Assembly: GCF_003412455.1 (NCBI RefSeq)
Contig: NZ_QTJU01000002.1
Span: 186,001-250,000, forward strand
Reading direction: 5' to 3'
Length of the DNA: 64,000 nucleotides
From: Deminuibacter soli
GTDB lineage: Bacteria; Bacteroidota; Bacteroidia; Chitinophagales; Chitinophagaceae
The notes under the pieces are model-generated. The model was not told the DNA's origin. It was given only the letters and a program-made list of their open reading frames with translations, and ran no database searches. The translations under genes and the position numbers were made by a program. Numbering within the stretch: position 1 is the stretch's first letter; each line of letters opens with the position of its first letter. This document shows positions 37,129-43,204 of this stretch, piece by piece.

Positions 37129-38421
37129 TTACTTGATATGTACAGTGACTTTCTTTTTCTTTTCCGGTCCGCTGGTAATCCATTTTGGTCCATTACGTAT
37201 GGCATCAATGGCCTGTGAATCTGTTTCTGAAGGTGTGCTGCGGATCACGAAATTGTAGGGCTTTCCTTTATCGTTTATTTCAAACTCCATTTCTATATCA
37301 CCGGGCAGGGGCTCTTCGCTGGCGGTAGTATCTATTTCTTTGTGCAGTTTGGTGTATACATACTGCTGAAACATTTGCCAGCCGCCTGCTGGTGTTGCGT
37401 CGGGTGTTGCCTGTTTAACTGCATTGCCCGAAGCAGCAGCTTTTTTGCTGCGTGAGCGCAGTTCTGTCACCACCATATCGCCAAGGCTCTGCTGGCTTTC
37501 TTCCAGCTGAACACTATTGGTTTTATTCGCTTTGATGGTTACCTCTGCACTGGCATATCCCAATGAAGAAACAGTAACGCTGGTAATGGAATCGTTACTA
37601 CGTAATACAAAGCGGCCGTCTTCATCGGTCATGGCCAATGCTTTGCCGTTTATGGGTTTAATAGTGGCGTTTTCCAGTGGTTTCTGCTGTTCATCACGCA
37701 CAATTCCTTCCAGCTGGTATACTTTGCCTGGTGCGGCCTGCATAGGAGCTGCCATAGTAGCTTTTCTTGCTGCGGTAAACCCCATATTGCCGTGAATAAC
37801 GGTATCAGTTTGAACTTTATCGTATTCAGCCGGGGCTGCCATTGCGGTGACTGCTGCCGGTTGTTTTGCTGCAGGGGCAGGCGGTGCTTCGGCTGCTGCA
37901 ACTACGGGTGCACTGGCAGTAACAGGCTGCTGTGGCTGTGGTTTGCTAAACACCTGTGGTGCAGGTTTACGCCGGATAACTGCGGGTTCTGCTGCCGGTT
38001 TGGGGCTGCCGCTTTTATCTGCCCGTATGCTGTCTTGTACAACAGGGGGCGTGGTGTTTTTGGTAATGGTAGCCAGTTCGGGTGCCTGGGTTGGCGAGGG
38101 CTTGTTTTGCAGCAACAGGGCGCCTGTACCTGCGCCTGCAATAAGTATTACAGCTGCAGCCACGCGCAGCCAGGTGCGGCGCTTATACACGGGCAATACT
38201 TTTACCTGTGCAGGGCGTTGCAATGCCGCCGCAATGTTATTTAAATGCTGTTGGGCAATCGGCAGCTGCACCTGGGCAAAACCTTCCATTGCATCGGCCA
38301 GGAAAGGGTCGTTCAGCGCTGCCTTTTCCAGTTCGTGCATTTCTTTTGCGGGCATGCGGCCCTGCAGGTACCGCTCGATATCTGCCAAAGAAAATTCATT
38401 ATGGTTGTATTGCTCAGCCAT
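37129..38421 (-). CDS. Anti-sigma factor with carboxypeptidase-regulatory-like and TonB-like periplasmic parts
   Basis: A 430-residue single-pass membrane protein. The cytoplasmic N-terminus (residues 1-80; FSLADIERYLQGRMPAKEMHEL) resembles a zinc-free anti-sigma domain. A membrane helix follows (WLRVAAAVILIAGAGTGALLL, about 84-104), then an Ala/Pro/Gln-rich linker. Next come a carboxypeptidase-regulatory-like repeat (GIVRDEQQKPLENATI to VTVSSLGYASAEV) and a C-terminal domain similar to TonB C-termini (IEMEFEINDKGKPYNFVIRST). Its start overlaps the sigma gene by eight bases, so it very likely controls that sigma factor. Confidence 0.82.
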   Translation of the reverse strand: MAEQYNHNEFSLADIERYLQGRMPAKEMHELEKAALNDPFLADAMEGFAQVQLPIAQQHLNNIAAALQRPAQVKVLPVYKRRTWLRVAAAVILIAGAGTGALLLQNKPSPTQAPELATITKNTTPPVVQDSIRADKSGSPKPAAEPAVIRRKPAPQVFSKPQPQQPVTASAPVVAAAEAPPAPAAKQPAAVTAMAAPAEYDKVQTDTVIHGNMGFTAARKATMAAPMQAAPGKVYQLEGIVRDEQQKPLENATIKPINGKALAMTDEDGRFVLRSNDSITSVTVSSLGYASAEVTIKANKTNSVQLEESQQSLGDMVVTELRSRSKKAAASGNAVKQATPDATPAGGWQMFQQYVYTKLHKEIDTTASEEPLPGDIEMEFEINDKGKPYNFVIRSTPSETDSQAIDAIRNGPKWITSGPEKKKKVTVHIK

Positions 38422-38992
38422 TGCTTTCCATACAATTTTTCAGGTTTCTTCTCCCGTTCTGTATCAGGCTGCGTACTTTGTTCCAGTCGCTGCCGGTTAT
38501 TTCAGTGATTTCCTGGTAACATTTGTTTTCCAGGTAAAACAGTGTAACTGCTTGTTTCTGTGCTTCTGCCAGCTGTTCCATACACAAACCGAGACGCTTA
38601 AAATCCGCTTCTTTTTCCAGTATACTGTCCAGATGCGAAAGATCTTCCGATTGCATAAAAAATCCCTGCTCCGGCAGGGAAACCGTTTTATGCTTCTGCT
38701 CTTTGCGCAGTTGCATCAAACAGTGGTTTTTGGTAACCACGTACAGCCAGCTTTTGAAATTGGATACCTGGTGGTGGGGTAGTTTGACCAGTAATTCCTG
38801 GTAAATGTTCATAACTGCGTCTTTGGCAGATTCGGCTTGTTTCAGGTATTTAACACAGGTGCCGTATACCAGGTCGGTATAACGCAGGTATAAGGTTGCC
38901 AGTACCTGCTGTTCGCCGGTTTGCTGAAATTCAGCCAGCAGCTCCTCATCGGTGCGCGGGGCGTTTGTCCCTATGTGCCTTACTGGAATCAT
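38414..38992 (-). CDS. ECF RNA polymerase sigma factor
   Basis: About 192 residues (an ATG at 39013 would add seven). Region 2 is seen in LATLYLRYTDLVYGTCVKYL and the following DAVMNIYQELLVKL, with VSNFKSWLYVVTKNHCLMQLR. Region 4 is EQLAEAQKQAVTLFYLENKCYQEI ending in the HTH ITGSDWNKVRSLIQNGRRNL. It is translationally coupled to the anti-sigma gene. It is divergent from a four-Cys membrane protein gene, a plausible regulon member. Confidence 0.92.
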   Translation of the reverse strand: MIPVRHIGTNAPRTDEELLAEFQQTGEQQVLATLYLRYTDLVYGTCVKYLKQAESAKDAVMNIYQELLVKLPHHQVSNFKSWLYVVTKNHCLMQLRKEQKHKTVSLPEQGFFMQSEDLSHLDSILEKEADFKRLGLCMEQLAEAQKQAVTLFYLENKCYQEITEITGSDWNKVRSLIQNGRRNLKNCMESNG

Positions 38993-39150
38993 GTGCTGCC
39001 GGCAAGGTAACAATTTTTACCGTACGCCTGAAACCCAGTGTGTTAAAACAGGGAACAGCCTTACCCGGTATGAACAGAACTGAACGCCCATGTAACGCAG
39101 CTAAATGATGTAATTTGTCGTTTCCCCGCATCTTCTGCAAAACTGCTGTT

Positions 39151-39978
39151 ATGAAAAAAACACTACAGGTATCTGTACTCCAACCCTGCCACGAAAACTG
39201 GAATGCCATGCTACCCGGCGAAAAGGGAAGTTTTTGCGGGGCCTGCCGCAAAGAGGTGGTTGACTTTTCGCTGATGACCGATCAGCAGTTGCTGAACTAC
39301 CTCTCAGCCGCAAAAGGCAATACCTGCGGCCGCTTTACCCGCAGCCAGCTGCAACGGAATCTTGTTGCTGCGCAACCACCTGCAAAGAAAAGCCGCTGGC
39401 TGGCGGTGCTGATGCCGTTGTTGTTGCTGCTGGACAAAAGTTACGGGCAGCAACCGGCTGTTACGCCTGCAACAGCACAATACCCGCATGAAAAAAAGCC
39501 ACCAAACCTGGAAACGGAATCTATCGTGTCTACACTTCCATCGTCAGAGTTATTGGATACACCCAACGCAAATTATATGGAGCATAGGCGCAGCTCTTTT
39601 CAATATGGCCAGGGGCTGCCCCTTGCATCGTCAATTGATATAGTCATTGGCCAACCCGAACTAAGACGGCAGCCTCATTTTTTGTGGCGTGATACAGCCG
39701 CCAGTTACCTGCGTGGCGTTCTGCAAAAACGCCCTTTTATAGTTAAGCCTAGCCAGGTAAAATTGAATAACAACTGCACGGTAACCGTACATGAATGGAA
39801 TGATTTTAATATCGAAGTGTTTAATGCAGCCGGCGACTTTGTATATCTGCAAAAATGCAGGAACAGTCAAAACCTGCCTGTCAGCATCCAGGCGAAATGG
39901 CCTAAAGGTGTTTATTATGTACGGGTATTGAATGAGCGGTTATTAGGTTACTACACAGAAAAAATATGGGTGAAATAA
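39151..39978 (+). CDS. Four-Cys N-terminal domain membrane protein with T9SS-like C-terminus (paralogue 1)
   Basis: A 275-residue protein of unknown function. Residues 1-70 form a Cys domain (C13, C29, C32, C59; PCHENW, FCGACRKEVVDFS, GNTCGRF) that could hold zinc or an Fe-S cluster. A single membrane helix follows (WLAVLMPLLLLL, about 83-94), then a low-complexity region. The last ~70 residues (CTVTVHEWNDFNIEVFNAAG, KGVYYVRVLNERLLGYYTEKIWVK) resemble type IX secretion sorting domains. There is no N-terminal signal peptide. The next gene is a paralogue with identical Cys spacing. Confidence 0.75.
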   Translation: MKKTLQVSVLQPCHENWNAMLPGEKGSFCGACRKEVVDFSLMTDQQLLNYLSAAKGNTCGRFTRSQLQRNLVAAQPPAKKSRWLAVLMPLLLLLDKSYGQQPAVTPATAQYPHEKKPPNLETESIVSTLPSSELLDTPNANYMEHRRSSFQYGQGLPLASSIDIVIGQPELRRQPHFLWRDTAASYLRGVLQKRPFIVKPSQVKLNNNCTVTVHEWNDFNIEVFNAAGDFVYLQKCRNSQNLPVSIQAKWPKGVYYVRVLNERLLGYYTEKIWVK

Positions 39979-40038
39979 ATAATTGCTATTCTCTTATGTA
40001 ATACAGAAGATCGTGGCATCCTGTATTAAACTGCAACC

Positions 40039-41037
40039 ATGAAACCGACTGTACAACTCTTTATACCCACTCCTTGCCATGAAGACTGGCACAAGATGCA
40101 ACCCGGTTCACAAGGCCGCTTTTGCAATGCCTGCAGTAAACAGGTGATTGATTTTTCTGCAATGAGTGATCAGCAAGTACTTCAGTATTTTTCTGCCGCG
40201 CAGGGAAATGTATGTGGCCGTTTTAATTCTCATCAACTAATGCGCGATCTGGCGCATGCAACGCAACCCTCACGCAAAAGCAAGTGGGTGGCTGCTTTAC
40301 TGCCTTTGCTGGCGTTATTCAGCAAAGCTGAAGCACAGAAAACGATGGGTAAACCAGCGATAGGCCAATATCAGTCTGACAGGCAATTAACCGGCGATAC
40401 CGTAATAATAGCAACCAAACAAACCATAAAAGCAAGTATCAGCGGGTGGGTAATCGATTCGTCGGGAGCACCTATTGCATACAGTTCAATAACAATTGCC
40501 GGTACAAAATATGGCTGCGTTGCAGATAGTGCAGGCTATTATCATTTGTCTTTTGATGCACCCGGAAGAGAAGTAACCATTAGCTATGCTGCCGTTGGTT
40601 ACGTGATGCGATCCAGACAATTGCTTTTGTCCGAATCGCGTACAGCCATTGCCAATATGGAACTGTTGGCAACGACAACACTTGATGAAGTGCTGGTGGT
40701 CGGTGAAATAATTCCTTCACGGCGTTCCATAAAACTGAAGCGCGATACCATTGCTGCAAGTCTGTGCAAAGTAGTGAAAGGAAATACCTGTAAGCTATAT
40801 CCCAACCCTGTTACAGCCGGCGGCACTACCACACTCACGGTAAGTGCATGGGAGCATTTTACAGTAGAAGTATATACCACAGGAGGCGCACCTGTTTATA
40901 ACCAGGAATACACCAATAGCAAAAAAATGCCCATACAAATACCCGTGGCCGGTAACTGGCATACAGGCATGTATTACGTACGCGTTGTAGAAATTGGTTC
41001 CGGTAAAAATTATACCACCAAACTGCTGGTGCAATAA
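40039..41037 (+). CDS. Four-Cys N-terminal domain membrane protein (paralogue 2) with carboxypeptidase-regulatory-like domain
   Basis: A 332-residue protein. Cys13, Cys29, Cys32 and Cys59 and the words PCHEDW, FCNACSKQVIDFSAM and GNVCGRF repeat the pattern of the upstream gene. After a membrane helix (WVAALLPLLALFSKAEAQ, about 85-102) there is a carboxypeptidase-regulatory-like module (ISGWVIDSSGAPIAYSSITI, REVTISYAAVGYVMRSRQL) and a T9SS-like end (CKLYPNPVTAGGTTTLTV, GMYYVRVVEIGSGKNYTTKLLVQ). It probably presents a periplasmic or surface domain; function unknown. Confidence 0.75.
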   Translation: MKPTVQLFIPTPCHEDWHKMQPGSQGRFCNACSKQVIDFSAMSDQQVLQYFSAAQGNVCGRFNSHQLMRDLAHATQPSRKSKWVAALLPLLALFSKAEAQKTMGKPAIGQYQSDRQLTGDTVIIATKQTIKASISGWVIDSSGAPIAYSSITIAGTKYGCVADSAGYYHLSFDAPGREVTISYAAVGYVMRSRQLLLSESRTAIANMELLATTTLDEVLVVGEIIPSRRSIKLKRDTIAASLCKVVKGNTCKLYPNPVTAGGTTTLTVSAWEHFTVEVYTTGGAPVYNQEYTNSKKMPIQIPVAGNWHTGMYYVRVVEIGSGKNYTTKLLVQ

Positions 41038-41242
41038 ATAGTAAAACATGCTGGTTTTGTTACATGCAGCCTGCCTTAACGAAAGTGAATGCAGTGCTGC
41101 ATTTTTTATGCGCGTACACCTATAAAAAATATTTCCGCCGTTTATGTAATACCGTTTTCTTCCGCATCTGCTATATACAACGTTGTATCATTTGTTCGCT
41201 CGTTTTTATTTGTACTCATTTAAATCATCAAAAATTGCTGTT

Positions 41243-43204
41243 ATGAAATACCTGCTTTTTCTAAGTCTTGCCTTTGCCTTACTGGGCTTTAAATTCAGTA
41301 ATGACACTGCTTATGATATTTATGGAACAGTTACCGATTCAACAGGAGCACCCATCCCCGGTGTCAGCGTTAATGAAAAAGGAACCAAACATGGCACATC
41401 CACAGATGCGCATGGCAACTTTCACCTGCATGTAAAAACAGATTCGGTTGTACTGGAGATAAGTTATATAGGCTATGAAACCAAAGAGGTGCTGGCCGTT
41501 GCAGGCAATAAGCTGACTGTACAATTGAATGCATCCAGCCAGGTACTAAATGAAGTTGTTGTAAAAGGATATTATACAGCGAGTAAAAAAGACCTTGTTG
41601 GTTCGGTACGTACAACAGCCCCTGGCATGTTGGCTGATAAGGAAGCCCAATACGATATGATGGCCGCTGCGCCTTTGCAGGGAAGAGTGGCAGGCTTGCA
41701 GGTGAAAGGTCATTACAGGAAGATAGAAGAGAAACGGTTTAACCGCGAAGGGTATGCGCACATAGAAGAAAACAGGTTTATGAAAGTAAAAGATGCCCCG
41801 CTGTCTACTTTTTCCATTGATGTGGATGCAGCCTCTTACAGCAATATCAGGCGTTTTATACAGGCAGGTGAACTGCCGCCTGCAGGTGCAGTGCGTATTG
41901 AAGAAATGGTGAACTACTTTCATTATAATTATCCGCAGCCAACAGGTAGTGATCCCTTTAGTGTAAATACTGCACTGTCCGTTTGTCCCTGGAACACCAA
42001 ACACCAGCTATTGCAGATAGGACTGCAGGGCAAAATTATCCCGCGTGAATCACTGCCACCTGCCAATCTTGTTTTCCTGGTAGATGTGAGCGGCAGCATG
42101 ATGGAAGAAAACAAATTGCCGCTGGTGCAATCATCTTTAAAATTATTAACTGATCAGTTGCGCCCTGAAGACCGTGTGGCACTGGTGGCGTATGCAGGTA
42201 ATGCCGGACTGGTGTTGCCTTCTACCTCTGGCGCGGAAAAAAATATCATTAAAACAGCCATCGCCCAACTGGAAGCAGGCGGCTCCACAGCAGGTGGTGC
42301 AGGTATTCAGCTGGCGTATAAAGTAGCGCGGGAACAGTTTAAAGCCAAGGGCAACAACCGTGTTATTCTTTGCACAGATGGCGACTTCAATGTAGGTGCC
42401 AGCAGCGACGATGCATTGGTGCGCATGATAGAAAAAGAACGGGAAGGCGGTGTGTTTTTAACTGTGTTGGGTTTTGGTACCGGTAATTACCAGGATGCAA
42501 AAATGGAACAACTGGCCGATAAAGGCAATGGCAACCATGCTTATATCGACGGCATGAACGAAGCACGCAAAGTACTGGGACATGAATTTGGCGGCACCTT
42601 GTTCACCATTGCCAAAGATGTGAAACTGCAGCTGGAGTTTAACCCTGCGCAGGTACAAGGCTACCGGTTGATTGGTTATGAAAACCGCATGCTGGCAAAA
42701 GAAGACTTCAATAACGATAAAAAGGATGCAGGCGAACTGGGCAGCGGGCATACGGTTACGGCTTTGTATGAGTTAATTCCCGCCGGTGCGGCTGCCAGTG
42801 AGCTGGATAGTGTTGATCAGCTGCGTTATCAACCGGTTGCTGCTGCTGCATCCAAACAGCCGGTGAGTAAAGAGTTGCTGAACATTAAACTGCGCTACAA
42901 ACAACCCGATGGCGAAACCAGCAAGTTGATTCAGTATGCCGTACAACCCGGTGCCGTTGCATTTGACAAGGCACCCGAAAACCTGCGCTTCGCTGCTGCT
43001 GTAGCCGCGTTTGGTATGCAGCTGTGTGATTCAAAATTCAGGGGAACACTTGATTACAATGGCATTTTAAAAATAGCGCGCAATGCAGTAGGGAATGATA
43101 CGGAAAACTACCGCAGCGAATTTGTACAGCTGGTACAGAAAGCCCGGTCATTGCCCACTGCGTCTGTAAAGCACGGCGATGACGATGATGACGAAGATGA
43201 ATAA
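41243..43204 (+). CDS. VWA-domain protein (YfbK-like) with carboxypeptidase-regulatory-like domain
   Basis: A 653-residue exported protein. A signal-like helix (KYLLFLSLAFALLGF) precedes a regulatory-like module at 25-100 and a stretch resembling a SusC plug remnant (VVKGYYTASKKDLVGSVRT, then LQGRVAGLQV at about 145-154). The von Willebrand type A domain has an intact MIDAS, DVSGSMM, at 281-287. The C-terminal part matches the DUF3520-type tail (YELIPAGAA, LNIKLRYKQPDGETS). The extreme C-terminus is acidic (DDDDDEDE). The role is unknown; protein-protein interaction at the envelope is likely. Start 41243 fits the signal sequence. Confidence 0.85.
   Translation: MKYLLFLSLAFALLGFKFSNDTAYDIYGTVTDSTGAPIPGVSVNEKGTKHGTSTDAHGNFHLHVKTDSVVLEISYIGYETKEVLAVAGNKLTVQLNASSQVLNEVVVKGYYTASKKDLVGSVRTTAPGMLADKEAQYDMMAAAPLQGRVAGLQVKGHYRKIEEKRFNREGYAHIEENRFMKVKDAPLSTFSIDVDAASYSNIRRFIQAGELPPAGAVRIEEMVNYFHYNYPQPTGSDPFSVNTALSVCPWNTKHQLLQIGLQGKIIPRESLPPANLVFLVDVSGSMMEENKLPLVQSSLKLLTDQLRPEDRVALVAYAGNAGLVLPSTSGAEKNIIKTAIAQLEAGGSTAGGAGIQLAYKVAREQFKAKGNNRVILCTDGDFNVGASSDDALVRMIEKEREGGVFLTVLGFGTGNYQDAKMEQLADKGNGNHAYIDGMNEARKVLGHEFGGTLFTIAKDVKLQLEFNPAQVQGYRLIGYENRMLAKEDFNNDKKDAGELGSGHTVTALYELIPAGAAASELDSVDQLRYQPVAAAASKQPVSKELLNIKLRYKQPDGETSKLIQYAVQPGAVAFDKAPENLRFAAAVAAFGMQLCDSKFRGTLDYNGILKIARNAVGNDTENYRSEFVQLVQKARSLPTASVKHGDDDDDEDE

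Follow-up and report, generated by a model that had tools for sequence, protein, structure and literature searches.

The 64,000-nucleotide stretch of the Deminuibacter soli genome analysed here (the window) carries two neighbouring genes, A and B, whose products combine a four-cysteine (Cys4) domain, an internal hydrophobic segment and an exported-type remainder (Table 1). The two proteins share 38% identity overall and 55% across residues 1-85 in a pairwise comparison, and a search of the same genome with an N-terminal profile returned only these two copies at E 1 or better. C13, C29, C32 and C59 occupy the same positions in both, and the hydrophobic segment begins at residue 83 in each. In these respects, the preliminary description of A and B as paralogues with matching cysteines and an internal hydrophobic segment is borne out. 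Divergent from gene A lies an ECF sigma factor gene, recognised through Sigma70_r2 (36.1 bits, cut-off 24) and r4_2 (33.3 bits, cut-off 25.7). Its neighbour encodes an anti-sigma-like protein that, read by eye, has a cytosolic N-terminus, one membrane helix and a TonB-like C-terminus (the latter with no Pfam match). The supposed ECF sigma pair is thus one sigma factor and one anti-sigma-like membrane protein (by eye), while the VWA protein reported nearby was confirmed by a family match.

Table 1. Genes, protein domains and promoter-like elements at the A/B locus (positions within the window).
Feature	Coordinates	Strand	Details
Anti-sigma-like partner	37129..38421	-	CarboxypepD_reg-like domain, residues 238-318
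Divergent ECF sigma factor	38414..39013	-	ORF called from TTG
Promoter-like element of A	39109..39133	+	TGTAAT-N13-GCATCT; ends 17 nt before ATG
Gene A	39151..39978	+	Cys4 leader and exported part with weak T9SS-type tail; 275 aa from ATG
Cys4 domain of A	39163..39360	+	Residues 5-70; C13, C29, C32, C59
Signal-peptide core and c-region of A	39397..39447	+	Residues 83-99; predicted cleavage S-Y-G/Q100
Predicted exported part of A	39448..39975	+	Residues 100-275; tail at 210-272 sorting-like but below cut-off
Promoter-like element of B	39997..40021	+	TGTAAT-N13-GCATCC; ends 17 nt before ATG
Gene B	40039..41037	+	Cys4 leader, CarboxypepD_reg-like domain and T9SS type A tail; 332 aa
Cys4 domain of B	40051..40248	+	Residues 5-70
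Signal-peptide core and c-region of B	40285..40335	+	Residues 83-99; predicted cleavage A-E-A/Q100
CarboxypepD_reg-like domain of B	40438..40698	+	Residues 134-220; 42.3 bits against a cut-off of 32.2
T9SS type A sorting domain of B	40795..41034	+	Residues 253-332; TIGR04183; Pfam model below cut-off
Promoter-like element of VWA gene	41145..41169	+	TGTAAT-N13-GCATCT
VWA/YfbK-type protein	41243..43204	+	CarboxypepD_reg-like domain; common element upstream

The Cys4 domain is strongly conserved. An alignment of 115 relatives (kept from 118 sequences, all found through the Cys4 domain) has eight invariant residues, C13, W17, G26, C29, C32, V36, D38 and C59, and H14 is retained in 95%. The coincidence of the cysteines in A and B is therefore not due to chance. 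Confirmed relatives number at least 567, of which 80 named loci were studied. Sampling found the domain in 42 of 98 family genomes (with a two-row profile), 100 of 295 class genomes and 43 of 296 phylum-wide (39 of these 43 within the class), counts that come from subsamples with differing profiles and thresholds. Identity across the Cys4 part is 52% against 25-26%, an excess that is inflated because the loci were picked by this very domain. The invariant residues, together with a recognisable copy in about a third of the sampled class genomes, indicate that the domain is probably under selection. For the same reasons, it is very improbable that the Cys4 domain of A and B is a mere inheritance of no present importance, followed by an ordinary late signal peptide. 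Some copies do look decayed, for instance one lacking C59 and the helix (L142), but such a relic is hard to square with eight invariant residues in 115 diverse sequences, even though these were picked by the Cys4 domain, or with its retention across the class.

Residues 1-70 of A and B probably form a compact, zinc-stabilised Cys4 domain, with metal binding a plausible reading of the four invariant cysteines. An AlphaFold model of the domain is compact at moderate quality (pLDDT 74.3), and a fold search with it found no relative in the PDB. Searches of Pfam, NCBIfam and PHROGs gave no match at usable significance. In sequence searches of the PDB, A's domain alone matched a cytochrome at E 0.0007, a match that weakened to E 0.25 with the profile, while the best match of the Cys4 profile was HMGB1 at E 0.033. 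A plasmid search returned two distant matches, one of them annotated as a carboxypeptidase-like regulatory domain protein. No description of the domain was found in the literature searched, which does not by itself prove that there is none. Zinc anti-sigma (ZAS) domains are marked by the motif HxxxCxxC. As position 25, four residues before C29, is K or Q in A and B, this motif is missing, and no such Pfam match was among those listed; a ZAS-type identity was therefore rejected.

What follows the Cys4 domain looks like a signal peptide. Among 197 ORFs with matches, 178 were unique and 172 had a hydrophobic segment. A Q-rule-like site, [AGSTVCLI]-x-[AGSC]-Q, lies behind this segment in 136 of the 172, compared with 36.1 in shuffled tails and 13 of 168 in a control window 55 aa further on (an earlier count with other limits gave 133 of 174). 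In Bacteroidetes, signal peptidase I substrates with Gln at +1 have been described as the Q-rule (PMC5837995). Both A and B fit this pattern, with Gln100 directly after S-Y-G and A-E-A, respectively. A lipobox occurs in 13 further members (shuffled, 1.1; downstream window, 2 of 168), pointing to signal peptidase II. Uncharged runs are short, with a median of 14, and in 126 of the 172 they follow a stretch of net charge +2 or more. The leader is 89-112 aa long across members with the Q-site and about 99 residues in A and B. The Tat motif [ST]RR.F[LI] is absent ahead of the core in all 172 members, ruling out Tat export.

Such a mix of signal peptidase I and II sites would be expected of a signal peptide and not of permanent anchors. 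The hydrophobic segment of A and B is thus most likely a displaced late signal peptide, predicted to be cleaved and to leave no lasting anchor, and by topology the Cys4 domain ahead of it should stay in the cytosol. The preliminary description, which saw no N-terminal signal peptide, was right for the extreme N-terminus and wrong for the protein as a whole. It also proposed that a cytosolic metal-binding domain is tied to an exported tail. The arrangement itself stands and is an uncommon one, as a conserved Cys4 domain precedes the export signal and exported-type domains follow it, but a lasting tie is not supported, given the Q-rule sites of A, B and most relatives and the 13 lipoboxes. Nothing observed speaks directly for the sensor or assembly-factor role that it suggested. 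An ordinary late signal peptide, which that description had named as the finding that would overturn its reading, is what the site pattern predicts.

A permanent anchor would instead make A and B single-span membrane proteins in which the cytosolic Cys4 domain reports on the exported CarboxypepD or tail domain, in line with the sensor of the preliminary description. The union of cytosolic-side and exported-type domains in one chain would suit this reading, as would the similar layout of the anti-sigma-like neighbour and the 23 of 172 members in which neither a Q-site nor a lipobox was recognised. Some of these 23, however, end in AxA without Gln or barely miss the pattern used. Against an anchor, cleavage sites far exceed both the shuffled and the downstream controls and the hydrophobic run is short, while the T9SS-type tails found in 62-64 of 115 relatives (E 0.01) would need to be released from the inner membrane. 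A lasting membrane sensor was rejected on the site counts, and we consider a permanent anchor in A and B quite unlikely. The segments of one Kordia (L070) and two Ulvibacter members (L083, L088) could be stable anchors.

The exported parts point towards type IX secretion more clearly for B than for A. The tail of B scores 32.4 bits with TIGR04183 (cut-off 23) and 24.3 with Pfam Por_Secre_tail, below its cut-off of 27; that of A falls below both cut-offs (19.5 and 19.9, respectively). The T9SS-like tail originally ascribed to both proteins thus holds for B and is weak in A, which also has no CarboxypepD_reg-like match in Pfam. The genome encodes SprA (2472.6 bits, cut-off 200) and two PorV proteins (373.9 and 326.7 bits, cut-off 90). 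The best PorU sortase candidate reached 19.6 bits against a cut-off of 420, and a divergent PorU is possible. In a fold search with the full B model, the 50 matches listed were beta-sandwich or Ig-like proteins, for which aligned ranges were not given. No autotransporter beta-barrel translocator was found in A or B, or among 25 of the 30 Pfam families of the 115 relatives.

Across the relatives, the leader is constant and the cargo varies, ranging from sorting-domain to lipoprotein-type and very short forms. At E 0.01, Pfam CarbopepD_reg_2 is present in 101 of 115 members, Por_Secre_tail in 64 and TIGR04183 in 62. Some complete ORFs (L132, L008) have just ~30 exported residues, and three loci (L142, L143, L144) have ORFs without cargo or helix, including one Cys4 ORF without a hydrophobic segment in L144; the L142 copy looks decayed. 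One locus (L148) has three tandem Cys4 genes whose exported parts of ~45 residues contain lysine- and arginine-rich stretches, as judged by eye. In L063, near 10001 (the same place as L012), the Cys4 frame stops at 82 aa. Its export-like remainder forms a separate ORF with a signal-peptide-like start (L172, 3231-4322), which marks the gene as split or frameshifted.

A, B and the VWA gene are also joined by a promoter-like element. The window holds three exact copies, one ahead of each gene, and six matches if a single mismatch is allowed; shuffling gave a mean of 0.89 and in 100 trials never as many as six. Genome-wide, TGTAAY-N13-GCATCY has seven matches, three of them at this locus, compared with three for a reversed-pattern control. 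The preliminary description placed A and B beside the sigma and VWA genes, and the common element and synteny support a link between them. Because the motif was initially recognised by eye ahead of these three genes and broadened once relatives had been inspected, the following wide counts are partly post hoc, and the loci are related to each other, some being almost identical (such as L095 and L096). The widened element lies upstream of 58 of 117 related Cys4 genes: 33 of 46 in sigma loci (shuffled mean, 0.16) and 25 of 71 elsewhere (0.13). With the first, narrower pattern, the corresponding counts were 10 of the 46 (shuffled mean, 0.02) and 12 of the 71 (0.04). For genes other than Cys4, the wide counts are 10 of 343 in sigma loci (shuffled mean, 1.05) and 1 of 594 elsewhere (1.80). 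Six of these ten are VWA genes, and another three sit directly ahead of Cys4 genes. A gene in the latter position, as in L171 (2485-3567) and, with similar size, in L079, L101 and L109, carries the element and so may be part of the regulon.

Of 24 genes matching the narrower pattern, 14 have the end of the element 17-22 nt upstream of the Cys4 start codon, as do 20 of 25 genes of a second list with the widened one. On this spacing, a misread start codon was rejected as the source of the long leader. In 29 family loci, the element precedes Cys4 in 13 of 22 copies from genomes with the sigma factor and in one of seven from those without it. The presence of the element before all three genes and its frequency upstream of related Cys4 genes suggest that A, B and the VWA gene are probably controlled by the divergent ECF sigma factor via this element. 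A looser pattern, TWTGBAAW-N13-GCATC, turns up in 95 of the 96 family genomes, including many that lack Cys4, so such sites are not confined to an A/B/VWA regulon. In D. soli it has four matches (control, two) and misses A's copy; three of the four are at this locus, one of them inside the sigma gene. The match within the sigma gene (38631-38657, minus strand) recurs in several relatives and coincides with the MQSEDLSHL codons, where protein constraint may explain it, although it could also be an internal promoter serving the anti-sigma gene.

Control is probably different in other lineages, since the loci of Kordia and Ulvibacter and most of those of Flavobacterium are without the element. 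Searching for motifs ahead of the 61 genes that remained yielded mainly A/T-rich dyads. A different upstream stretch is common to the Cys4 genes of Kordia, Ulvibacter and Dokdonia (L048, L056, L070, L082, L083, L088, L089, L104) and by eye resembles CTGTTTACTCATT.

The wider sigma locus appears to be self-standing. Within four genes of the Cys4 gene, the 80 named loci contain a sigma homologue in 28 cases, an anti-sigma-like gene in 27 and a VWA gene in 13; the VWA gene is visible in 10 of the 28 sigma loci, some contigs ending nearby. Beyond these genes, no neighbour was seen to recur across lineages, while lineage-specific genes recur near Cys4 in up to nine loci. In two genomes without Cys4 (L167, L168), the sigma and anti-sigma genes face a VWA gene bearing the element, and in L170 neither Cys4 nor VWA adjoins the sigma genes. 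Cys4 genes thus have the look of additions to a sigma locus able to exist without them. Two records titled as Williamsia and Limnohabitans MAGs (L041, L103) carry a Bacteroidota-type gene and are probably misnamed bins.

Among 98 family genomes, 49 have a sigma orthologue (at least 230 bits, a cut-off that we set in a visibly two-peaked score list), 42 have Cys4 and 28 have both (Fisher p 0.0076, uncorrected for kinship); in 24 of these 28, the two genes are no more than 8 kb apart. Many family genomes also have a second, more distant ECF sigma factor that scores about 125-210 bits to the profile. The co-occurrence and the element common to Cys4 genes and the sigma locus would be expected if the Cys4 domain were an anti-sigma or co-regulator of the ECF factor, or acted on another cytosolic target, either as precursor or as cleaved leader, with two products per gene. 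The members that export just ~30 residues, or have no hydrophobic segment, could also be understood in this way, but they may be decayed or frameshifted genes. Furthermore, Cys4 occurs without the sigma orthologue in 14 of its 42 genomes, and it is thus not simply the anti-sigma of that factor; conversely, 21 of 49 sigma genomes lack Cys4. The sigma gene is already paired with an anti-sigma-like partner, and the HxxxCxxC motif is absent. A regulatory role of this kind is therefore doubtful.

We favour, at roughly even chances, the view that A and B are exported proteins with a long, structured Cys4 leader that is cleaved, is expressed under the sigma factor and acts in export control. The Cys4 domain (residues 1-70) would stay in the cytosol, and residues ~75-99 would serve as a normal Sec signal peptide with a positive n-region, a short hydrophobic core and an AxA-like site. 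Cleavage by signal peptidase I is predicted between residues 99 and 100, ahead of Gln100, which would become pyroglutamate under the Bacteroidetes Q-rule. The mature part would then be exported, probably via the type IX system, given its sorting-like tail and, in B, a CarboxypepD-like beta-sandwich. The divergent ECF sigma factor would probably drive A, B and the VWA gene from the TGTAAT-N13-GCATC elements, and the Cys4 domain would hold, time or route the precursor at the Sec machinery before or during export.

The sequences themselves display the invariant domain, the signal-peptide pattern behind it and the common promoter-like element; cleavage, metal binding, sigma dependence and T9SS export are inferred. 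The least certain part of this explanation is the job of the Cys4 domain. A constant leader on variable cargo leads us to think that it acts on export itself, but this also fits a leader acting after cleavage. It is unlikely, for example, that each gene yields two products, with the cut precursor giving an exported protein and a cytosolic Cys4 leader that remains held at the membrane and, as a regulator, signals the export flux or the state of the envelope to the cytosol; were this so, Bacteroidota would possess a widespread family of signalling leaders, connected at this locus to an ECF regulon of its own. A zinc or redox switch, by which a metal-binding Cys4 domain would block or permit export according to the cytosolic metal or redox state, seems distinctly improbable. 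Four invariant cysteines alongside invariant W17, G26, V36 and D38, and expression tied to an ECF-type regulon, would be in keeping with a switch, but the recurrent neighbours, judged only from the starts of representatives, included no recognisable metal or redox gene.

Signal peptides are usually regarded as disposable. The Cys4 leader, by its sequence, is a widespread leader family in Bacteroidota with no model in the family libraries searched, so that annotation displays only the exported end. Its interest lies in this family and its sharply defined promoter-like element, rather than in a metal sensor joined to an exported tail. An invariant, domain-sized module precedes the signal peptide in about a third of the sampled class genomes, and if it controls export or signals after cleavage, secretion in Bacteroidota would be controlled at a further, new level. 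The sharp element and the fixed predicted cleavage site make the role of the leader directly testable.

ESPR leaders act on precursor export at the Sec machinery, as is proposed for the Cys4 leader. Long signal sequences of autotransporters have been described (PMC2805444) and resemble A and B in having a long N-terminal extension ahead of a Sec signal peptide. In A and B, by contrast, the extension is a conserved four-cysteine domain of ~70 residues, and no autotransporter domain was among the cargo families listed. YSIRK/GXXS signal peptides of Gram-positive surface proteins are reported to have a pre-translocation role (PMC12004944), similar to that proposed for the Cys4 leader. However, they belong to another phylum and carry a short motif instead of a domain, with no sequence relation seen.

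Closer to A and B are the Q-rule substrates of signal peptidase I (PMC5837995), which share the small-x-small site and Gln after a short hydrophobic core, whereas the signal peptide of A and B starts ~75 residues in, behind the conserved Cys4 domain. As in T9SS type A cargo (TIGR04183), B has a C-terminal sorting domain and the genome has SprA and PorV. A and B differ from such cargo in their leader with a cytosolic domain, in the tail of A being below cut-off and in the genome having no PorU above cut-off. Lastly, the PorXY-SigP signalling of P. gingivalis, which involves PorA (PMC7712824), concerns a different locus, in which PorA has an ordinary signal sequence of 27 residues and lies upstream of the sigma factor. 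Nevertheless, the arrangement is like that of A and B, in that an ECF sigma factor is linked to a small CTD-bearing surface protein.
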